Shown: positions 10,886-56,993 of the stretch, one piece after another
How the letters are laid out: every line of letters begins with the position of its first letter
Numbering within the stretch: position 1 is the stretch's first letter
Notes under the pieces: model-generated
Seen by the model: the letters and a program-made list of their open reading frames with translations, nothing else
The model's database searches: none
Told to the model about the DNA's origin: nothing
Made by a program: the position numbers and the translations under genes
Assembly (NCBI GenBank): GCA_015345905.1
Contig: JADDTR010000001.1
Location: 1,240,001-1,304,000 of the forward strand
Origin: Aotearoamyces nothofagi
Lineage: Eukaryota > Ascomycota > Leotiomycetes > Leotiales > Tympanidaceae
Length of the DNA: 64,000 nucleotides
Direction of reading: 5' to 3'

Positions 10886-11579
10886 AACCAACCATACCAC
10901 TTTATCAAACGCGAAGATGGAAAAGGTGAATTCAGACAAGATGATATCTCGGAGCACGACCAATACACGCGGTGCATTATGGCGTTTAGTAATTTCGAGT
11001 TTCTGAAACGTATCAACGGGGCCACTGTCTTTGCATAGAGGGACGATTAATGCTCTGGCCTCCCTTGGCTTGCCTACTTGCACGGCTTTAATGCATGATT
11101 ATGACATGGTAAGGGAAACCTGGAATGGGATTTTCAGAAGCAAAATGAAGGGATTGTGGAAATCAAAAAGCCTGTGTTAATGGAGAGGAGAAGGAAAAGA
11201 GGGGCATCGATAGGTAGTTAGAGGGCTTAATATGAACGTCTTTGAGCGTAGTCGCTGAATCTTTGGTTCGGAAATGCGATGATACTCGTACAGATGCTAA
11301 ACCTAAGGATTCAGTAGCCAATTTACATTAATGGTAATGCAATATTTGATTATTTCACGTTGTGCCGACTTGAACGATTCGGATATCTTGGATAATAGTA
11401 TAGAGCACACACACGCCAATTTAATTCTTATGGAGTATCTGACATGTCACCGATCATCAGCCTTTGCCCGGCGCGAGGCACGTCTTCTAAAGGGATGTCC
11501 CGAGGTTGCAATATAGTACAGTATGGGGGGTACAACACAATGGCCTGGTTCCAGGTATTATTACCTCTTCTGCTCCCGA
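10886..11579. other. Convergent 3' intergenic spacer
   Basis: This spacer lies between the 3' ends of the BTB-like gene and the THOC1-kinase gene. It is moderately AT-rich, and no open frame or repeat of note was seen. Confidence 0.6.
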
Positions 11580-14343
11580 CTATTCCGTCACTGTTTCACC
11601 GGCAGCTGCAGCCTCGGTGTCATTCTCCGCCATTTGAACATCAGCCGTCTCAACGGCAGGGACGTCCGCTTTGCTTTCCGGTTCTTCTACAGTAACCTCC
11701 ATGGACGAATCTTGGTTATCGCTGGCTTCGTCATCCGAGACGGGCTCATCCTTCGGTCCTTTCCCAAACACATACTCCTCCAGCTCTGCGAAAGCCTTGT
11801 TCAGGTCATCGTTGACGATGACCCGGTCGTAGAAGCCTTCCATCTCGGCGTTTTGGACCTCCTCCTTGGCTGCCAGTAACCTTTCCTGGATTTCATTATT
11901 GGGCTCTGCCCCTTTACCTCGTAACCGCCTCTCGAGCTCCTCCATGCTCGGTGCGGATAGCAGTATAAACTTTGCAGAATAGCTTTGATCTTTAAGCTGT
12001 TGAATACCTTGATAGTCCATCTCCATGATAGGTAGTTTCCCTGCAGCAACTATGCCTTCCACAGTCTTTCGACTCGTTCCATAACCACTACTATTGTAGT
12101 TGCTGACTTCCAAGAACTGGTCTCCATCCCGCATCATGTTGTACGTCTCTGAATTCACGAAATAATGGTGCTGGCCATCAACCTCTCCTTGGCGAGGCGG
12201 GCGAGTCGTATGAGAGACCTTCTTGCCAAAAACCTTTGGATACTTTTCAATGAGCATATGCATAAGGGTGCTTTTGCCGGCTCCACTGGGCCCTGAAATA
12301 ACTATCGGCCGTCGGTCTAAAGGAGGAGCCGTATCCTCGACATCCATCCCGTCTTCGCTATTCTCCTTAAGTGGCTCCACTGGATCATCTTCAAAGATGA
12401 TGTGGATTTTCTCAGAATCATCAATTTTGTCAAAGCTGGCTAGCTTGGTCTTGCTCGCAATTCTAAGTGCACGCCAGCTTTTAGTGGCTTTACTGTAAAT
12501 CGCAGCATCCTTAGCCTCATCGCTGGCTGACAATTCGATGTCCATGTCGTCAAGTTCAATTTTATTCTTGAAGCTGTCCAATGTTGGAACCTGGTACTTC
12601 GCCGGATTCTTCAACTTTTCCATACCTCCAGGCCCATCAGCTTCTGTAAGAAAGTTCAGATCCAAAGAGCCCAAAGGCTTAGCACGTAATCGCTTATTTG
12701 TCGTCGCTTTGCGTGCCGCAGCTTTCGCTGTAATGTATTCCTCGGATGATATCGCTGGTCGCTCGATAGAGGGACAGTTTTCAATCTTCCAGCGAACCCA
12801 GTTTTTGTCTCGTGATAAGACTGTCTCAACCATTCTATAGAAAAATGGCCCTTCGTAGCCTTGTTTCAAGTATTCGGCAATTGATTTTTTGGTATCATTT
12901 GCCCATTTTGCCTATGCGATCATGAGTATTGATGAATATACAAATTTAAATTTACAACTCACATCGTCGTCGCTGAGCAACTGGTCCTGGTACATGACCG
13001 ACTTATTTTGAGCTGTGAGTGCGACGAGCTTCTCTTTTGCCTTAGCACTAAGTGAGAGGAGAAAATCCATAATTATAAGAGCTTGCACAAGTATATGCCG
13101 TCTAAATGAGAGGTCACTAATCTTTGAATGCACGTATTAGCAATCTCCAAAGATGGGGCTGGCGGATAACGGTTACCTCTAACTCAAAAAGGTCTCTGCT
13201 AGTCAGGTATTTTGGATTAAATGCGTTCGCCAAATCATCATCACCTTGTCCACGCTTTCGCTTTGTACCTCTTTTACCATCCTCGACGGACTTAGGTGCC
13301 CCCCGTCCAGTTTGATCGTTCCGAACCGACTTGAACATCACTATTGTGGCCTCTAGGCCTCTTTTGAACTCTGCGAATTTCTCTTGGTCAAACAACTTCT
13401 TCGGTTGGCTGAAGCTCTGCTGCAGAGACCAGAATATAGGGTATAAGGTATCTGGATCAAGTGGCTTCTCCGGAGGCGCAGCGTTATTTGCATTGAATGT
13501 GACAGACTTTGTCGCGCCTCTAGATTCGTCCGCAGTTTTGGTAGAATTTGAAGGACCAGTAGGTGTTGGTCTGGTTTCCGCAGCTGGTGCTGTAGGGGTA
13601 GGTTTAATTTCAACGTCCACTTCCATCTGTTCCGGCGAGCTTTCTGCTTTTGCAGGGATTTCATCGAAGGCTGTGACGTTTTCAACGTGGTACTCGCCAC
13701 GTAGATTTACAGAGCTCTTATCCCCCAAGGGAAAGCTCTGAAACATAAATATAAAGACCCGACCGCAAAACGCTGTGTCTTCGGCTCGGGAAAGTCGTCG
13801 CAGGAGCTCGTTACCGCTTCTTAGGATGACTAAATTCTTTTGCTTGAAGTGCTTTGCAGTAATGCGTTCTCTACGAGCTTCTAGGTAATCGAAGACCTGA
13901 CGACAGCCAGCAATCGTCTGGCTGTCTAAAAGCTCCTCGACTAGCCAAAATAGCAGGGCTGGATCGCATTGTTCATCATCCGAGAGAATGGATACAATAT
14001 CCAGCAAGTTCCATACTTGTACGAATTCGGGTTGATCGATCGCCGCGGAGGCCTAAGTCTGGTCAGATTGGTCCCTTCTCGAGGTTGGTGAACTGCTCAC
14101 CAAAAGCGTGTTGAAGACATCTCGGACAGCTGTCTCGATGACAGCATATTGGACTGACTTCTTTGATTCCTGCAAGTTTGAAAACCCCTCAATAGATTGT
14201 AGTTGCGGCAGAAACTCTGCGAAATCAGACTTGAGTAGTGGAGGTTCTATCGTATGTGTTTGCTTTGTTGCACCAGCCTTGACAAGCATATTCCTCAGAA
14301 GCCTTCCAAATACCTCTACGGCCTCCACATTGTAAGTCACCAT
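11580..14343 (-). CDS. THOC1: THO complex subunit 1 fused to a guanylate kinase domain
   Basis: Four exons on the minus strand (14343-14101, 14052-13177, 13121-12963, 12911-11580) give 869 residues. All introns are 43-51 nt with good donors, and each join keeps frame. Residues 1 to about 600 match the Hpr1/THOC1 family (TREX complex, co-transcriptional mRNP assembly and export), notably LLRRLSRAEDTAFCGRVFIF and FQSFPLGDKSSVNLRGE. After a linker of acidic residues the same exon runs without a stop into a full guanylate kinase domain (about 625-815): P-loop GPSGAGKS, GMP-binding stretch SHTTRPPRQGE, YGTS, EMDYQG and the lid-region Arg residues. The C-terminal 60 residues are acidic. Metazoan THOC1 has a C-terminal death domain where this protein has the kinase. 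Two adjacent genes merged by eye is excluded by the continuous exon, but a second internal start (Met in EDGMDVED) could also yield a free kinase. Confidence 0.88.
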
Positions 14344-14630
14344 GCTGATCGCATGCACTGAGATAGTGACTATAGCAGGGTCGTTATGCGCGCATTCGTC
14401 GCCTCTTGTCGTTTGTGAGGATAGCTGGCTTGTTGGCTGTACTGCTCTATGTAGTGAGGCTTCGCGATCTGAACATGCTGAAGTTCTGAAAACTGCACTA
14501 AGGCGACGGGAGCTAAACTTTAATTCACCCAATAACGAGTGTCATGCATCAACGCGTTGAAATTGTTTCCGATTCTCTAAACGGTCTACTGAAGTTCAGG
14601 CGCAACAACAGCGCACCATTCACATTAACA
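14344..14630. promoter_or_regulatory. Shared divergent promoter, THOC1-kinase and Aquarius
   Basis: The start codons of the two genes face away from each other and are 287 bp apart, so both promoters and 5' leaders must fit in this interval. No clear TATA box is seen. The minus-strand frame upstream of 14343 stays open to 14532, so an N-terminal extension of the THOC1 protein cannot be excluded. Confidence 0.6.
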
Positions 14631-17600
14631 ATGGCGCCTAGGACGAGGGGCAATGTCGATGTTCAGAGGGAGGTTTTAAAGGAAGTCGACGATGGCCGAC
14701 CGACAGTGGCAGACTTACAAGGCGATAACCCGTTCGCGCAACTTGCGAAGAAATACTGGCTGAAGACTTCCAAAAAGCCAACGAAGGTCAAGGTGAAGCC
14801 AGAAGTACTGAAGAAGGAGATATGGGATGTACTTGAGAAGGACGATTTTGCATACAGAGCACTGCTGGTATTAGAGAATTTGCAGCTCCTTGAAAGGTAC
14901 GCAGACGACGGCTTTGCCCTTGGAATCATGCTAATTTCTTTCACAGTTACCTTTGGCCTGGATACTCTGAGGATTCATCTAATTATCATGTGTTGCTGAT
15001 CGTTTTGATTACGAACGTTAGGAGCCGGGAGCATCTGCCAACATGGAGTAAGTTTGGGCTAAATTCATCAAGATGCGCCCCGAATAGTACTGATTGAAGT
15101 AGACATATACTTGGATAATCCATCCGATTTCTCATCCCTTTTCCGTCGAATCCTTTCGATGACACTAGATTCCACTTTATCCCTAACGATTCGCACACAT
15201 CTGCTTTCTTTCATCATAAGCGCCTTCCAATCTTTGGATAGCGGCATTGTCCGTAAAGAATGCGCACCTCTGGTATCGATTTCCACATGGCACAATTTAT
15301 CGACTGAGAGAAAACGAGAGACCAAGTTGGATCAAACTATACAATTGAGAAAAGCTTGGAGAGCAGCAGCAAAGCGATACGATGCTGCCGACGAAACAGT
15401 TAAATCTCGGCTCCGTTTTGAGCGCTCGTGGCTCTATACACTGCTACTTGACTTCCTCAATCAACTGTACGGTGCAAAAAGTAAAACAGGTATGTTCAGA
15501 CACAGAAAACTGGGGCTGCACAGATTATTGACATCTCACCTACAGAAAATTTGCGCTACTGTGAGCGCTTCATCGAGTTCTTATCAGACTTGCAAAGCCA
15601 ATTGCCCACGCGCCGCTACGTGAACACACTATTGCAAGATTTACATATTCTTCCAGCTATAAGACTTTCGCCCCTATTTAACGTAGAGGAGAATGGCCTC
15701 CTTAGGGATCTTTACGCTCTTTTAAAGCATTACACCTACTTCTCAATAGATGATCATACCGGAATCCAACACTCTCGAACCGAAGCATACGAGCAACACT
15801 GTGCTAGGTTGGCAAATTTGCAGCGTATAGCCCTGAAGAACTTCAAATCGAAGCTCACAATTCTAGCCCTTTCTAATTATGGCTCAATTGACAAACGCGA
15901 CCTGCTTGGAAGTCATTTGGAAACATTGACTGATGAAGAAATTGTTCAGCTATGCGATTTGCTTGATTTTCGAACTTCATACCCGGACACTACCGACGTT
16001 ACTGCAGACCGCGCCTTCTTACTGGAGGTTCTGTTTTCTGCCTTTGAGAAGCGCAAAACATTCCAAGAGACGGCACGGGATCTCAGCATACTGCCAACAG
16101 AGGAAACCTTGTTTGAGCCAACGTTATTGAGGAATGAGACATATAATGGTTCTCAACCATTAGCATTACCTAAGCTCAATCTGCAATATCTCACTGTTGG
16201 TGATTTCTTATGGCGGTCATTCATCCTTCACCGATGCGAATCCTTCTTTGCAATTCGGAAAGATATTGAGGATACCGTCAAACGTCTTCGCCCACAGACT
16301 GGTAGAAATGGGGAGACAAGGTTCGAAGGCTTCTCAAAAATGGCACTACCGATTTCAAAGCCTGCTATCTTAGAGACAGTTCCACCACTTGTTGGCGAGG
16401 ACAAACCTGCGGTGGTACGAGCAGAGATCACGCTGGACGTTAATCGCCTTGCTGATAACATACGCCGGGATTGGGATTCATTACGACCGGATGATGTAAT
16501 ATTTTTGTTGTCCGTTGTAGCTGTTGATGACACAAAAATGATAACCAACGGTGGTGCAGGGCAATCGGACTCTGACAAGCTAGGCTTAAGATTTGTTCGG
16601 GCAGCCGAAGTTACCCAAGTGCTAGATGAAAATGGCAAGCCAGTCAGAGAATCAAATGGACAAATGAACGGTCGTGGAAGACCACATTTGCGGCGACTCC
16701 ATATCAAACTTGACGCAGCTATGTATAAGCAGGACATGGAAAGAGTTGCAAACGGAAAGCCTGACATCTATGAGACTATTAATGTTGTTGTACGAAGACA
16801 AGGGCGCGAGAACAACTTCAAGTCGATTCTAGAATCAATTCAGAGTTTGACTCTATCGGACGTTCCTCTGGCTCCATGGCTCCACGAAGTATTCCTGGGC
16901 TACGGCAACCCTGCCGGGGCAACGTATACCCATCTTTCCAATAGGATCAAGGAGGTAGATTTCCGAGACACCTTTTTGGATTGGCAGCATCTGGTGGAAA
17001 GTTTACCTGGAACGACAGTTGAACCAAGCGAGGAAGCCGAAAGCACTCCTGGCCCACCTTATGTTTTGCAGACGGTGGAAAAGGCTGCTGAAGTTGTGCC
17101 CGCAAAGCCGTCAAAGAAGCGTCGGCGGGATCAAGTTGAGCCTGCACAAGCTGTCGCCCCACCCGGCTTCAAAATATCTACCTACAAGCCTCCAAACACT
17201 GGACCTTATCCATTTGATGCACCCAAGCTCAATCATGTTCGCTTCACGCCTGCTCAGATAGACGCAATTATTTCAGGCACGCAGCCAGGATTGACCGTGA
17301 TTGTTGGTCCTCCTGGAACGGGCAAGACAGATGTTGCGACACAAATCATTAATAATATATATCACAACTTTCCAAAGCAGAGGACACTACTTATTGCTCA
17401 TAGCAATCAAGCACTTAATCAGCTGTTTCAAAAAATTGTCGCCCTGGACATAGATGAAAGGCATCTCCTACGACTTGGGCACGGCGAAGAGGACCTAGAT
17501 ACCGAAAGTAACTTTAGCAAACACGGTCGTGTAGAGTCTTTCCTTGAAAATAGGGACCGCTATCTACTAGAAGTAGATCGCTTGGCCGCGAACCTTGGAG

Positions 17601-19150
17601 CACCAGGTGCTCATGGCAGTTCTGCGGAGACGGCAGGGTATTTCAATTCTGTTTACGTCGAACCTGCATGGACAAGGTTCCAAGAGATTCTGAAGTCGCC
17701 TGAAGCATCTCCCGAGGCTCTTGTGAAAGCCTTTCCCTTTCACTACTACTTTTCGAATGCGCCTCAGCCACTTTTCCCACCTGGAGCAGACAAGGAGATG
17801 TTAATAGATATTGCAAATGGATGCTACCATCACATCTCAAAGATCTTCACTGAGCTGGCTGATGTAAGGCCATTCGAAATTCTTAGACGAGACCGTGATA
17901 AGGCCAACTACCTTTTAACGAACGAAGCGCGCATTATAGCGATGACATCTACTCATGCAGCGATGCGAAGACGTGAGATTGCCTCCCTTGGCTTCCACTA
18001 TGACAATGTCATTATGGAGGAAGCCGCTCAGATCACAGAAATCGAGAACTTTATACCCCTGGCCTTGCAAAACGCCAAGGAAGGCTTGACGCCGCTACAG
18101 CGGGTTGTCTTGTGTGGAGACCATCTTCAGAACTCGCCAGTCGTGCAGAATCTCGCTTTCCGACAATACGCTAATCTCGAGCAATCCCTCTTCTCTCGTC
18201 TGGTCCGTCTAGGTGTCCCGACAATCAATCTAGATCGTCAGGGCCGTGCCCGTCCTTCAATTGCTGAGCTGTATCAGTGGAGATACCCACATCTTGGTAA
18301 TTTACCGCTCGTTGAGACTTCCTCTGAGTTTCAGATTGCAAATGCTGGGTTCAAGTATGAATATCAATTCATCAACGTGCCCGACTACAAGGGGCGAGGA
18401 GAATCAGAACCAACACCCCATTTCATCCAAAACTTGGGTGAAGCAGAATATGCGGTAGCCATATTCCAGTATATGCGATTGCTTGGATACCCCGCAGAGA
18501 AAATTAGTATATTGACTACTTATGCTGGTCAGCGTGCATTAATAAAGGATGTTCTGGCACATCGTTGCGCGAAGAACCCTTTGTTTGGGTTGCCCAAGAT
18601 TGTCGTTACAGTGGATAAGTACCAAGGCGAGCAAAACGATTGTAAGTTTTTTATATCTACTTAGAAGGCACCACTAACGACCCACAACTTAGATGTTATC
18701 CTGTCATTAACGCGCACTTCACGAGTTGGGTACTTGCGTGATGTTAGGCGTCTGACTGTAGCCCTGTCTCGTGCCCGTCTTGGTCTTTATATCCTCGGGC
18801 GTCGCGAGGTATTTGAATCATGCTTTGAACTTCGACAAGCCTTCGATATCTTGCTCCGAAGGCCGGACAAGCTGATGTTGGCTACCGGTGAACTGTGGCC
18901 TTCGAAGAGGATCATTTCAAAGGAAGAAGGAAAGAAAGAGATTCCCGGTGAATCTGTTATGGAAGGAGTTGAGCATCTCGGGCAATATGTGTATGATATG
19001 ACGAATGCGAAGGTAAATCAGTTGCGTGCTGAACAGGGTCTGCCAGAAGCTGCAGAGCCTCTACCTGTGCTTGAAGAGACAGATCAGGAGGATACAGTTT
19101 ATGAGGATGAGAATAAGGACCTGGCTAATAAGTTTGAAGCTGAGGAATAA
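14631..19150 (+). CDS. cwf11: Intron-binding spliceosomal helicase Aquarius (Cwf11 family)
   Basis: Five exons (14631-14896, 14947-15047, 15103-15489, 15546-18641, 18693-19150) give 1435 residues, the usual size of the family. The N-terminal half has the Aquarius armadillo-type region, including ENLRYCERFIEFLSDLQSQL and LPTRRYVNTLLQDLHILPAI. The SF1 helicase core follows: Walker A GPPGTGKTD near residue 838, Walker B-like MEEAAQ near 1074, LCGDHLQNSPVV, LDRQGRARPS, TVDKYQGEQND and the arginine-finger motif VALSRARLGLYILGR. Aquarius binds the intron upstream of the branch point as part of the intron-binding complex. The acidic C-terminal tail is typical. The last intron splits the motif V region and is supported by the restored reading Y-V-I-L-S-L-T-R. 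Confidence is high. Confidence 0.96.
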
Positions 19151-52971: not shown

Positions 52972-54569
52972 CTGAAAAGTTTCTTTTGTTCTCTTCTTTT
53001 CCGACTATTGCCTACCGCCAAGCTCGATAGTCGGACGTCGTTACACGTCATGTTGCCATGAATTCACATATCACTCGTTATGACTATTCGATCCATTTTA
53101 CAGAATGGCACGGATTTCATATGAGACTCGGGATAATGGAATCGGCAGTATAGAGCTGTAGCGGCTTAATTCTGTGCATAGTTTCTCTCCTGTTATTAGA
53201 CAGCGTTGTTATCGAGGTGCATTTTAGATGAGGATGACGAATCATGGAGTAAAGTGCAGGCGAATGGGCTTATGAGAAAATGTCGTCGGGCATCATCTGA
53301 TGGCTTGCTACTTTCTGCTTTCAATTGGGTAACTAGCAGTTCTTGTTCTGGAGACTTGGGTAGGTTTGTGCTACAAATTTAATAGATAGATAGATAGATT
53401 GAAAATCCTAAGAATTCCTCTCATGATCCTTGCCATCTATGCTGAAGAAACAGTTGCACTCAAGGAGCGAGAAGCCACATACATCTAGATGTATGCACGT
53501 TGCTTCACTCTTACAGCTGCGTGATATAATTAATCCGGCGCAAACAATACCAAAAGCTGGGATAGCGGTATAGCGATCGTTCTTCGCCGTGCGCCATTGA
53601 GCGACTCTATTGAACGAGGTCTCGTGGGAACGTTATTCCGGTCCCGTGCTGTCGGGGGTTGATCCGGAGAGGAGGATGCTGCCGACGCGGGTGCCGACGC
53701 GCTGTCAGACTGGCTGCGCCGGCGCGGCGAGGAGGACGGGGCGGCGTGCTCTGATCCGGTGCAGCAGAGGGCTATCGAGAGCAGCTTATTGAACCGGGGG
53801 GGGCGGTCGCGGGATTTGTCTTTCCGGCGCTGCGATAGACGGAGGTGAGATTGCGGAGCTGATACGGAGGCGGATGTTGGTCCGGCTGGTAGATATATAC
53901 CTTGCTTGGTTTGTTTCGGGACCACGGTGTTGATCCGCTGGATAATGGTAGATGGCGGAGGGGAGGAGCAGCTTGCTGCGGCTATTGAGAAGCGGTGTTG
54001 AGCAGGGGGGGAGGGGGGATGTTAGTCCGGCGCTGAGGCTGCTCCGATACTTAGGTTGTTCCGGGACTGTGGTGTTAATCCGGTGGATAATGTGAGATGG
54101 CAGAGGAGGCCTGCGTCTTGCTGTAGCTATTGAGAAGTGGTGTTGAGCAGGGGGGAGGGGGGATGTTATTCCGGTACCGCTGGATGGATTACTCCGTTGG
54201 AGTTGAGTTAGAGTTGTTCCGGCCGGTGTTACTAAGAAGCTACCCTGGTACTATCGGTGTTGTTAATCCGGTGGACAATGTTAGACGGCAGGGGAGAGTA
54301 GGCTCTTGCTGTGGCTATTGAGAAGTGGCATTGAACGGAGGGTCGCGGAAATGTTTTTCCGGTGCTGTCATCAGATCTACTGCAACTCGGACATCTTCAC
54401 CATTTAAAACATCCACACTTGTATTCTACATTGGAAATCACTTTTCATGGGACTCGTTGACTCGATGAATGTGAGTGTCTTTATTGAGCAGTCACTACTA
54501 TACGCTGGCAACAACCAAATCTGGTGCGTTCCTCAAAGGCTGTGAAACTGCACGTTGAAGCCATCCCCT
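52972..54569. other. Convergent 3' spacer with a degenerate repeat array
   Basis: This 1.6 kb region lies between the 3' ends of tos1 and the next minus-strand gene. Left of 53.4 kb it is unremarkable apart from a (GATA)n run at about 53383-53400. From 53530 to 54362 it is GC- and G-rich and built of diverged repeats, described separately. Confidence 0.6.
53530..54362. repeat. Degenerate tandem array, about 5 units of 150-190 bp, rich in TTNNTCCGG
   Basis: Five diverged units can be aligned by a block reading CTATTGAGAAG(T/C)GG...GAGCAGGGGGG...TTNNTCCGG. The blocks start at about 53607, 53786, 53976, 54127 and 54316. Within 53530-54362 the short element TTNNTCCGG (or one mismatch) occurs about 14 times, all on the plus strand, for example at 53530, 53633, 53659, 53877, 54022, 54057, 54075, 54166, 54214, 54263 and 54354. 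Second shared blocks read AATCCGGTGGA(T/C)AATG. No open frame or terminal repeats are recognisable. Confidence 0.75.
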
Positions 54570-55829: not shown

Positions 55830-56822
55830 GGCTGTGTGGAGCCTACACGTCAGACTCCATAAACGACGGACGCAGTGAGGAAAGGCAATCTACTTACTGA
55901 TGTTTAGCTTGTGATGCTTGTTAGGTATCTGTTTGGGAACTAATGAGCTGTTGAAGGGATGCTAGTAAAGCTTAGAGTGGTGATGTCTTCCCGACATCGA
56001 CGAGCGAGGAGTGATGTTGGAGGGAGGGGAACAGTCACGGCAGTGCGAATAAATATTCAAAATAAATTGTTTGTGGGCCGACGACTAAGCATCTCGACGA
56101 CTAAGCAACGTCGAGGGTTGCTGCACGGGACTTCCGCTGGATAGGAGCGAACTGACGCTTTTATATCACGTCTCAAGTTACTGCCGAAGCACATGCTGGC
56201 ATTACTCTTCTAGGATTGTCTTTGTTGCAATGCCATAGTATTACCTGACATGAGATTGCTCTTTTATAACGAGCAGAGTCTCTGCTATACCTCCCTTCTG
56301 GTCCAGTACTGTTATAGCAAGTCGAAGCTCTAACTCGTCGGTGCCCCTATACTCCAAATATTATACGAGAAGCATAGAATGCGTCATTGGTCTCGATACC
56401 GAGATGTAGATATATAGCTAGTAGTTAGCAGCCAGCAAACAGCTCTGCTTCGAAAGCTTCGAGAGAGAGAAAATGAAAATTTCAAGTACGAGATGGTCAC
56501 CGGTTCGGGATCGAGAGGTGCGATATCCAGAAATATATATATATAGAAACTATAACAATAATACCTCAAAAAACCACCATCTACACCCCCTTTCCAGGCC
56601 TGCCGAAACCTCCTACCGTGAGAATAACTAGCCCTCCCCCTCCCCCCCCTCTTCCCCTTCCATCGACGAAAAATAAGCCAGGATCTCCGGACGTAGCCGT
56701 CAATTACCCGTTCGGTGCCTCCCGTCCGCGCTCGGGTGCTATGTCCTCTACGGCTACATTCAAAGGCCCGACGACGACAGGAAAACGTCCTCGCCGCCGT
56801 CGGCACAGCTGTCGCCGAGGGG

Positions 56823-56993
56823 ACCTGTCGCGGCCGGGAACTCTCCTGCCGACCTGGCTTCTGTCGCGGGTAGGATCTGTCGCGGCTGAGAACTCTCCTG
56901 CCGACCAGGCTTCTGTCGCGGGTAGGGACCTGTCGCGGCTGGGAACTCTCCTGCCGACCAGGCTTCTGTCGCGGGTAGGGATCTGTCGCGGCG
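56823..56993. repeat. 52-53 bp minisatellite, about 3.3 copies
   Basis: Copies start at 56823, 56875, 56928 and 56981 with RYCTGTCGCGG at each start. Copies two and three differ at a few positions and by one G. Each unit itself contains CTGTCGCGGG twice. Confidence 0.92.

Follow-up and report, generated by a model that had tools for sequence, protein, structure and literature searches.

Locus and gene structure

The window, i.e., the whole stretch of 64,000 nucleotides of Aotearoamyces nothofagi DNA analyzed here, contains on its reverse strand a gene of four exons (14343-11580) with a predicted product of 869 residues. The spliced model has no internal stop. The encoded protein consists of a THOC1/Hpr1 part, a short linker, a complete guanylate kinase (GUK) domain and an acidic tail, in that order. 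Exon 1 (14101..14343) starts with the ATG at 14343. Exon 2 (13177..14052) encodes the N-terminal half of THOC1 and matches both human THOC1 and the efThoc1 family (PF11957, profile positions 1-243 of 490, E 7.3e-81). The central part of THOC1 is encoded by exon 3 (12963..13121), again with an alignment to human THOC1; here the PF11957 match starts at 13124 and continues into exon 4. In the six-frame genome search, this match covers profile positions 242-479 over exons 3 and 4, with intron 3 read through. Exon 4 (11580..12911) encodes the C-terminal part of THOC1, the linker, the GUK domain, the acidic tail and the stop, and is matched by both Pfam families.

All three introns are short and of the GT-AG type, with lengths of 48, 55 and 51 nt. 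The sites of intron 1 (14053..14100, GTGAGC...TTAG) and intron 3 (12912..12962, GTGAGT...CATAG) were read from the sequence. For intron 2 (13122..13176, GTAACC...CAAAG), the acceptor was set at 13122 because this position preserves the frame, while an acceptor at 13117 disrupts it.

According to the original prediction, the stretch 12911-11580 on the reverse strand is a single stop-free frame that begins with C-terminal THOC1 sequence and ends with a guanylate kinase, and both statements were borne out. Exon 4 has 1,332 bases and 443 codons. None of 2000 first-order Markov shuffles kept this length open in any of the three same-strand frames. In all 16 sub-windows, including the one at the junction, the exon 4 frame scores best for codons among the three same-strand frames. 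The efThoc1 match spans exon residues 1-186 (profile 292-479 of 490, E 4.8e-51), followed after a gap of 13 residues by Guanylate_kin (PF00625) at residues 200-381 (profile 2-179 of 182, E 1.3e-50). The end of the THOC1 homology and the linker occupy 12321..12458 (exon residues 152-197, with the efThoc1 match stopping at residue 186), the GUK domain 11769..12314, and the acidic C-terminal tail 11583..11750. Human THOC1, for which a solved structure is available, aligns with the first 627 residues of the fusion (E 3.6e-43), the last match being residue 582 (human residue 504). A scan of 11500-12911 gave two sigma-70-like sites (1.6 expected) and no terminators (1.4 expected), which tells nothing because these patterns are bacterial and the host is a fungus. 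The THOC1-GUK fusion is real, and it is probably functional.

An apparent gene for Aquarius, a spliceosomal protein that binds introns, on the forward strand (likely start around 14631; Aquarius domains at 15485-18664) lies head to head with the THOC1-GUK gene, with about 290 bases (window 14344-14630) between the likely start codons. This layout suggests a promoter common to two mRNA-processing factors. The gene content (Aquarius, NTR2, ATG14 and class-I myosin genes) and the short introns suit an ascomycete. Two tandem repeats are located further on, at 53911-54174 (145-base unit, 1.8 copies) and at 56820-56992 (53-base unit, 3.3 copies).

THO subunits and guanylate kinases in the genome

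The assembly of 25.5 Mb (55 contigs, possibly incomplete) was subjected to a six-frame profile search. PF11957 gave two matches, both of which are parts of the THOC1-GUK gene; a second THOC1 was not found with this profile in the possibly incomplete assembly. No candidate for the THOC1 subunit other than the fusion protein was thus found. Tho2 and THOC7 each have one match in the genome. There is also a single, partial match to the THOC5 family (PF09766, 86 bits, the first 141 of 362 positions, contig C4:65844-66305), which suggests that the fungus has a THOC5 relative. As to the assembly itself, the sole 5.8S rRNA match reported (contig C3:475762-475911) scores 44.7 bits against a threshold of 42; since it lies barely above this threshold, true rDNA is probably absent from the assembly.

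PF00625 matches the fused locus and one further gene, located on contig C18. The latter is the separate, free guanylate kinase that was sought in the same genome: as read from the sequence, it encodes a Guk1 of 206 residues (L004:3346-4098) with two likely introns of 75 and 57 nt, one of them within the kinase domain. This free Guk1 shares 55% identity with yeast Guk1 and keeps all tested ligand residues. The fused GUK domain has no introns, compared to two in free Guk1. This would be in line with a reverse-transcribed or otherwise intronless source, or with introns having been lost later.

Fold, active site and ancestry of the kinase domain

The motifs of the GUK domain had been described in the original prediction as all looking intact. 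This holds for the P-loop (GPSGAGKST) and most ligands, with the usual letters at K14, S34, R38, R41, E69, Y78, T80, R131 and R146 (yeast numbering, as throughout), but not for Tyr50, a GMP ligand, and Arg135 of the lid, which are replaced by His and Lys, respectively. The invariant set of GMP ligands is consequently incomplete (Y50H), as is the three-arginine set of the lid, in which arginines 131 and 146 are present and 135 is replaced (R135K). Both positions are invariant in the enzymes compared: all 80 bacterial sequences (the best 80 of 311) have Tyr at position 50 and Arg at position 135, and so do the yeast and mouse enzymes and the free Guk1 of this fungus. A third replacement, D98E, is ordinary, with Glu also being found in 33 of the same 80 bacterial enzymes (again the best 80 of 311). 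At 10 of the 12 nucleotide-site positions that were tallied, the letter also occurs in the other enzymes.

The bacterial set consists of the best 80 of 311 relatives, collected with patterns derived by aligning the fused GUK with the free Guk1 of the fungus. The loci were picked by the patterns E..xIQE and IVNDxLxK, which favours enzymes similar to the query. Position N168 is uninformative given this selection, and positions 50 and 135 fall outside both patterns. Tyr50 contacts the GMP phosphate, and Arg135 is one of the lid arginines touching the ATP phosphates. Our literature search found no paper on Tyr50. Y50H and R135K should each lower activity, though not necessarily to zero. With two invariant active-site residues altered, full catalytic competence is therefore not to be assumed.

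AlphaFold2 was run on exon 4 with an alignment of 53 of the 80 bacterial relatives, covering the GUK domain only. With this alignment of guanylate kinases, the GUK domain is predicted confidently, its pLDDT being 87-98 when taken in blocks of ten (residues 201-380). The pLDDT is below 50 over exon residues 152-192 (linker) and also low in the acidic tail; low values in the THOC1 part, linker and tail say little because the aligned rows cover GUK only. The best solved match of the GUK model is yeast guanylate kinase with GMP (1gky; rmsd 1.2 A, 43% identity). At the sequence level, the fused domain is 42% identical to the fungus's own Guk1 (82/195), 43% to yeast Guk1 (79/183) and 39% to the mouse enzyme.

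A tree of 84 sequences was built from the 80 bacterial enzymes (best 80 of 311), yeast, mouse, the fungus's own Guk1 and the fused GUK. The fused domain groups with the three other eukaryotic enzymes (100/99), with no firm order among the four (33/17). Its end branch of 1.12 is the third longest of 84, compared to 0.51 for the fungus's own Guk1 and 0.47 for yeast. A bacterial origin of the domain was rejected, as it joins yeast, mouse and own Guk1 against the 80 bacterial enzymes with the support given above. A recent copy of the free Guk1 was likewise rejected, since at 42% identity the two are no nearer to each other than the fused domain is to yeast Guk1 (43%). Two scans of viral contigs found no relatives (7 and 42 pattern matches, none related).

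MoGuk2 of Magnaporthe oryzae

The architecture is already known in another fungus. MoGuk2 (MGG_06394) of Magnaporthe oryzae is a protein of 810 aa with an N-terminal efThoc1 and a C-terminal GuKc domain, encoded by a gene with three introns; Cai et al. (2017, PMC5732230) assigned it to a ‘novel family of fungal GKs’. Its orthologues were found in few species only and form a separate group of their own, and M. oryzae also has an ordinary MoGuk1, which is possibly essential; the full-length MoGuk2 cDNA was cloned (PMC5732230). The authors take MoGuk2 as a GTP-synthesis enzyme, while mentioning the elongation/export role of efThoc1 (PMC5732230). In the available parts of that paper, we found no discussion of MoGuk2 as the THO subunit of the fungus. 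The enzyme reading is repeated in a 2024 review and two further papers, as far as their accessible text goes (PMC10879430, PMC8708221, PMC7987659), and no treatment of MoGuk2 as a THO subunit was found in the accessible portions of this literature. In the library searched, a guanylate kinase joined to THOC1, THO or Hpr1 yielded no paper on the fusion.

The published experiments concern both the activity and the domains of MoGuk2. Yeast with MoGuk2 reached a GDP value of 6.72 compared to 2.92 with the empty vector, the host being a heterozygote retaining GUK1 (PMC5732230). Deletion of MoGuk2 changed GDP by -60.1%, GTP by -63.7% and GMP by +34.0%; growth was slower, conidiation and infection were reduced, and perithecia were abolished (PMC5732230). 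When GDP or ATP was supplied to the deletion mutant, germination, appressorium formation and infectious growth recovered in part, but vegetative growth and conidiation did not (PMC5732230). MoGuk2 without efThoc1, without the kinase part or without the P-loop gave null-like vegetative growth in all three cases; conidiation, germination and infection suffered least when only the P-loop was removed (PMC5732230). At 12 h, germination was 94.7% for the P-loop deletion, 73.0% for the kinase-domain deletion and 62.0% for the null mutant, with the wild type at 100% (PMC5732230, Table 2). Part of the role of the MoGuk2 kinase domain is thus P-loop-independent, since the P-loop deletion germinates better than the kinase-domain deletion. 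The MoGuk2 data suggest GMP-kinase activity, indirectly, and the results of deleting the P-loop in M. oryzae speak both for and against catalysis.

Proposed role and alternative explanations

We propose that the fusion tethers a catalytically weakened guanylate kinase to THO, where it would supply or report guanine nucleotide locally beside a housekeeping Guk1. We hold this proposal at roughly even confidence. The N-terminal 600 residues or so should join Tho2 in THO/TREX, given their homology and single copy. The GUK domain would still bind GMP and ATP and would phosphorylate GMP more slowly than free Guk1, because the GMP-phosphate ligand Tyr50 and the lid Arg135 are changed; free Guk1 would handle housekeeping GMP phosphorylation. 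Sitting on a linker at the end of THOC1, the domain would be placed near the transcript under packaging, and could there supply or report guanine nucleotide at sites of transcription and export. The available text of two sources describes export-factor binding and UAP56 proximity for the C-terminus of THOC1 (PMC7744094), and an extended segment of yeast Hpr1 (501-605) that follows the body of Tho2, to which Sub2 binds too (PMC7744097). The original prediction held that the fusion may place GMP phosphorylation at the transcription-export machinery; the placement agrees with our data, but full catalysis cannot be assumed with Y50H and R135K.

The tethered kinase is most likely in view of the fused frame, the similarity to human THOC1, the absence of a second THOC1 among the matches found, the matches to Tho2, THOC7 and the THOC5 family, the separate Guk1, the predicted fold, the retained ligands and the grouping with eukaryotic enzymes in the tree. 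By analogy, the GDP rise in yeast, the nucleotide shifts, the partial rescue by GDP of germination and infectious growth and the null-like vegetative growth of the P-loop deletion of MoGuk2 would point the same way. Against it speak the changes at two invariant positions and a branch that is the third longest of 84, and, if MoGuk2 is a fair guide, P-loop-independent germination, the failure of GDP or ATP to rescue growth or conidiation and the use of a GUK1-bearing yeast heterozygote. Several of these points would also suit a near-inactive pseudo-enzyme acting as a guanine-nucleotide sensor or protein-binding scaffold on THO, an explanation that we consider the main and a serious rival, though the less likely of the two. 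Such a domain would bind GMP, ADP/ATP or a partner (e.g., an export factor) without useful turnover. Y50H and R135K, the long branch, a separate Guk1 being available and the mild effect of the MoGuk2 P-loop deletion on conidiation, germination and infection (PMC5732230) are in line with it, but the P-loop, most ligand residues and the hinge serine are retained, the MoGuk2 data suggest activity, and MoGuk2 lacking its P-loop does not rescue vegetative growth. As a more specific version, which we deem unlikely, the domain may have exchanged turnover for regulated binding of GMP and ATP through Y50H and R135K, such that THO-dependent elongation or the loading of export factors would follow the nuclear guanine-nucleotide state.

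The other explanations question whether the domain acts as part of one protein, or at all. It is improbable that the locus gives two products, THOC1 and a separate GUK, via an internal start, an alternative transcript or cleavage: there is an in-frame Met in the linker, 11 residues ahead of the GUK Pfam match, and the linker has a low pLDDT (though without any aligned row there), but no stop lies between the domains, the Pfam matches are 13 residues apart, the coding signal is unbroken across the junction, and the MoGuk2 gene is equally joined, with a full-length cDNA cloned. The idea of an old passenger, with a guanylate kinase copy having ended up behind THOC1 and being tolerated without a role, would agree with the 42% identity to the fungus's own Guk1 and the long branch. 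We give this even less credence, given that about 180 codons stayed open despite the divergence, that 10 of 12 nucleotide-site positions carry the letters of other enzymes and that deleting the kinase domain of MoGuk2 gives phenotypes. An artefact of the assembly or gene model is the least probable of all; the fusion is known here from genome sequence alone, but it occupies a single exon and a single frame, more than 11 kb from the nearer end of the window and deep within contig C1, and its domain order and intron number match those of MoGuk2.

Significance

The THOC1-GUK architecture was published in 2017, where it was presented as a purine-metabolism enzyme. If MoGuk2 is also the sole THOC1 of M. 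oryzae, the published deletion removed Hpr1 together with the kinase, and the published phenotypes would therefore need re-reading. With a GTP-synthesis enzyme on an elongation/export factor, a connection of THO to guanine nucleotide could be tested directly. Mycophenolic acid, an inhibitor of IMP dehydrogenase, serves as a transcription-elongation inhibitor, and one screen of this type lists a tho2 deletion of yeast as a candidate elongation mutant, according to the available part of the source (PMC2629578).

Comparison with known systems

Human THOC1 carries a death domain at its C-terminal end. The fusion resembles human and yeast THOC1/Hpr1 in matching nearly the full PF11957 profile and in its similarity up to human residue 504, but differs from the human protein in having a GUK domain at the end where the latter has its death domain. 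With Guk1 (yeast 1gky and the fungus's own free copy), it shares the predicted fold, the P-loop and most GMP and ATP ligands; it differs by an identity of 42-43%, by Y50H and R135K, by the lack of introns in the domain and by the tethering to THOC1.

A GUK fold within a larger protein is also found in the MAGUK proteins (PSD-95, Dlg, CASK, MPP5). The fused domain matches MAGUK domains with E-values of 4e-23 to 1.8e-13, compared to about 1e-44 for yeast Guk1. A Ser to Pro change at the hinge of an ancestral guanylate kinase virtually abolished catalysis and conferred protein binding, as stated in the accessible part of PMC4718807. Unlike in MAGUKs, the hinge Ser (S34, its position taken from the 4f4j alignment) has not become Pro in the fusion. 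Since the P-loop and S34 are both kept, the analogy is weak, and the MAGUK-like binding module suggested by the original prediction as an alternative use of the fold finds no support.

The closest known system is MoGuk2, with which the fusion shares an N-terminal efThoc1 and a C-terminal Guanylate_kin joined in one protein, three introns, a similar length (869 aa here, 810 aa in MoGuk2) and a separate Guk1 within the same genome. It differs from the MoGuk2 record in its locus and assembly; in the present protein, two invariant active-site residues are changed. The fusion is a Guk2-type THOC1, assigned by its architecture and compared with MoGuk2 by published description. The new points are the active-site substitutions and the status of the protein as the only THOC1 found.
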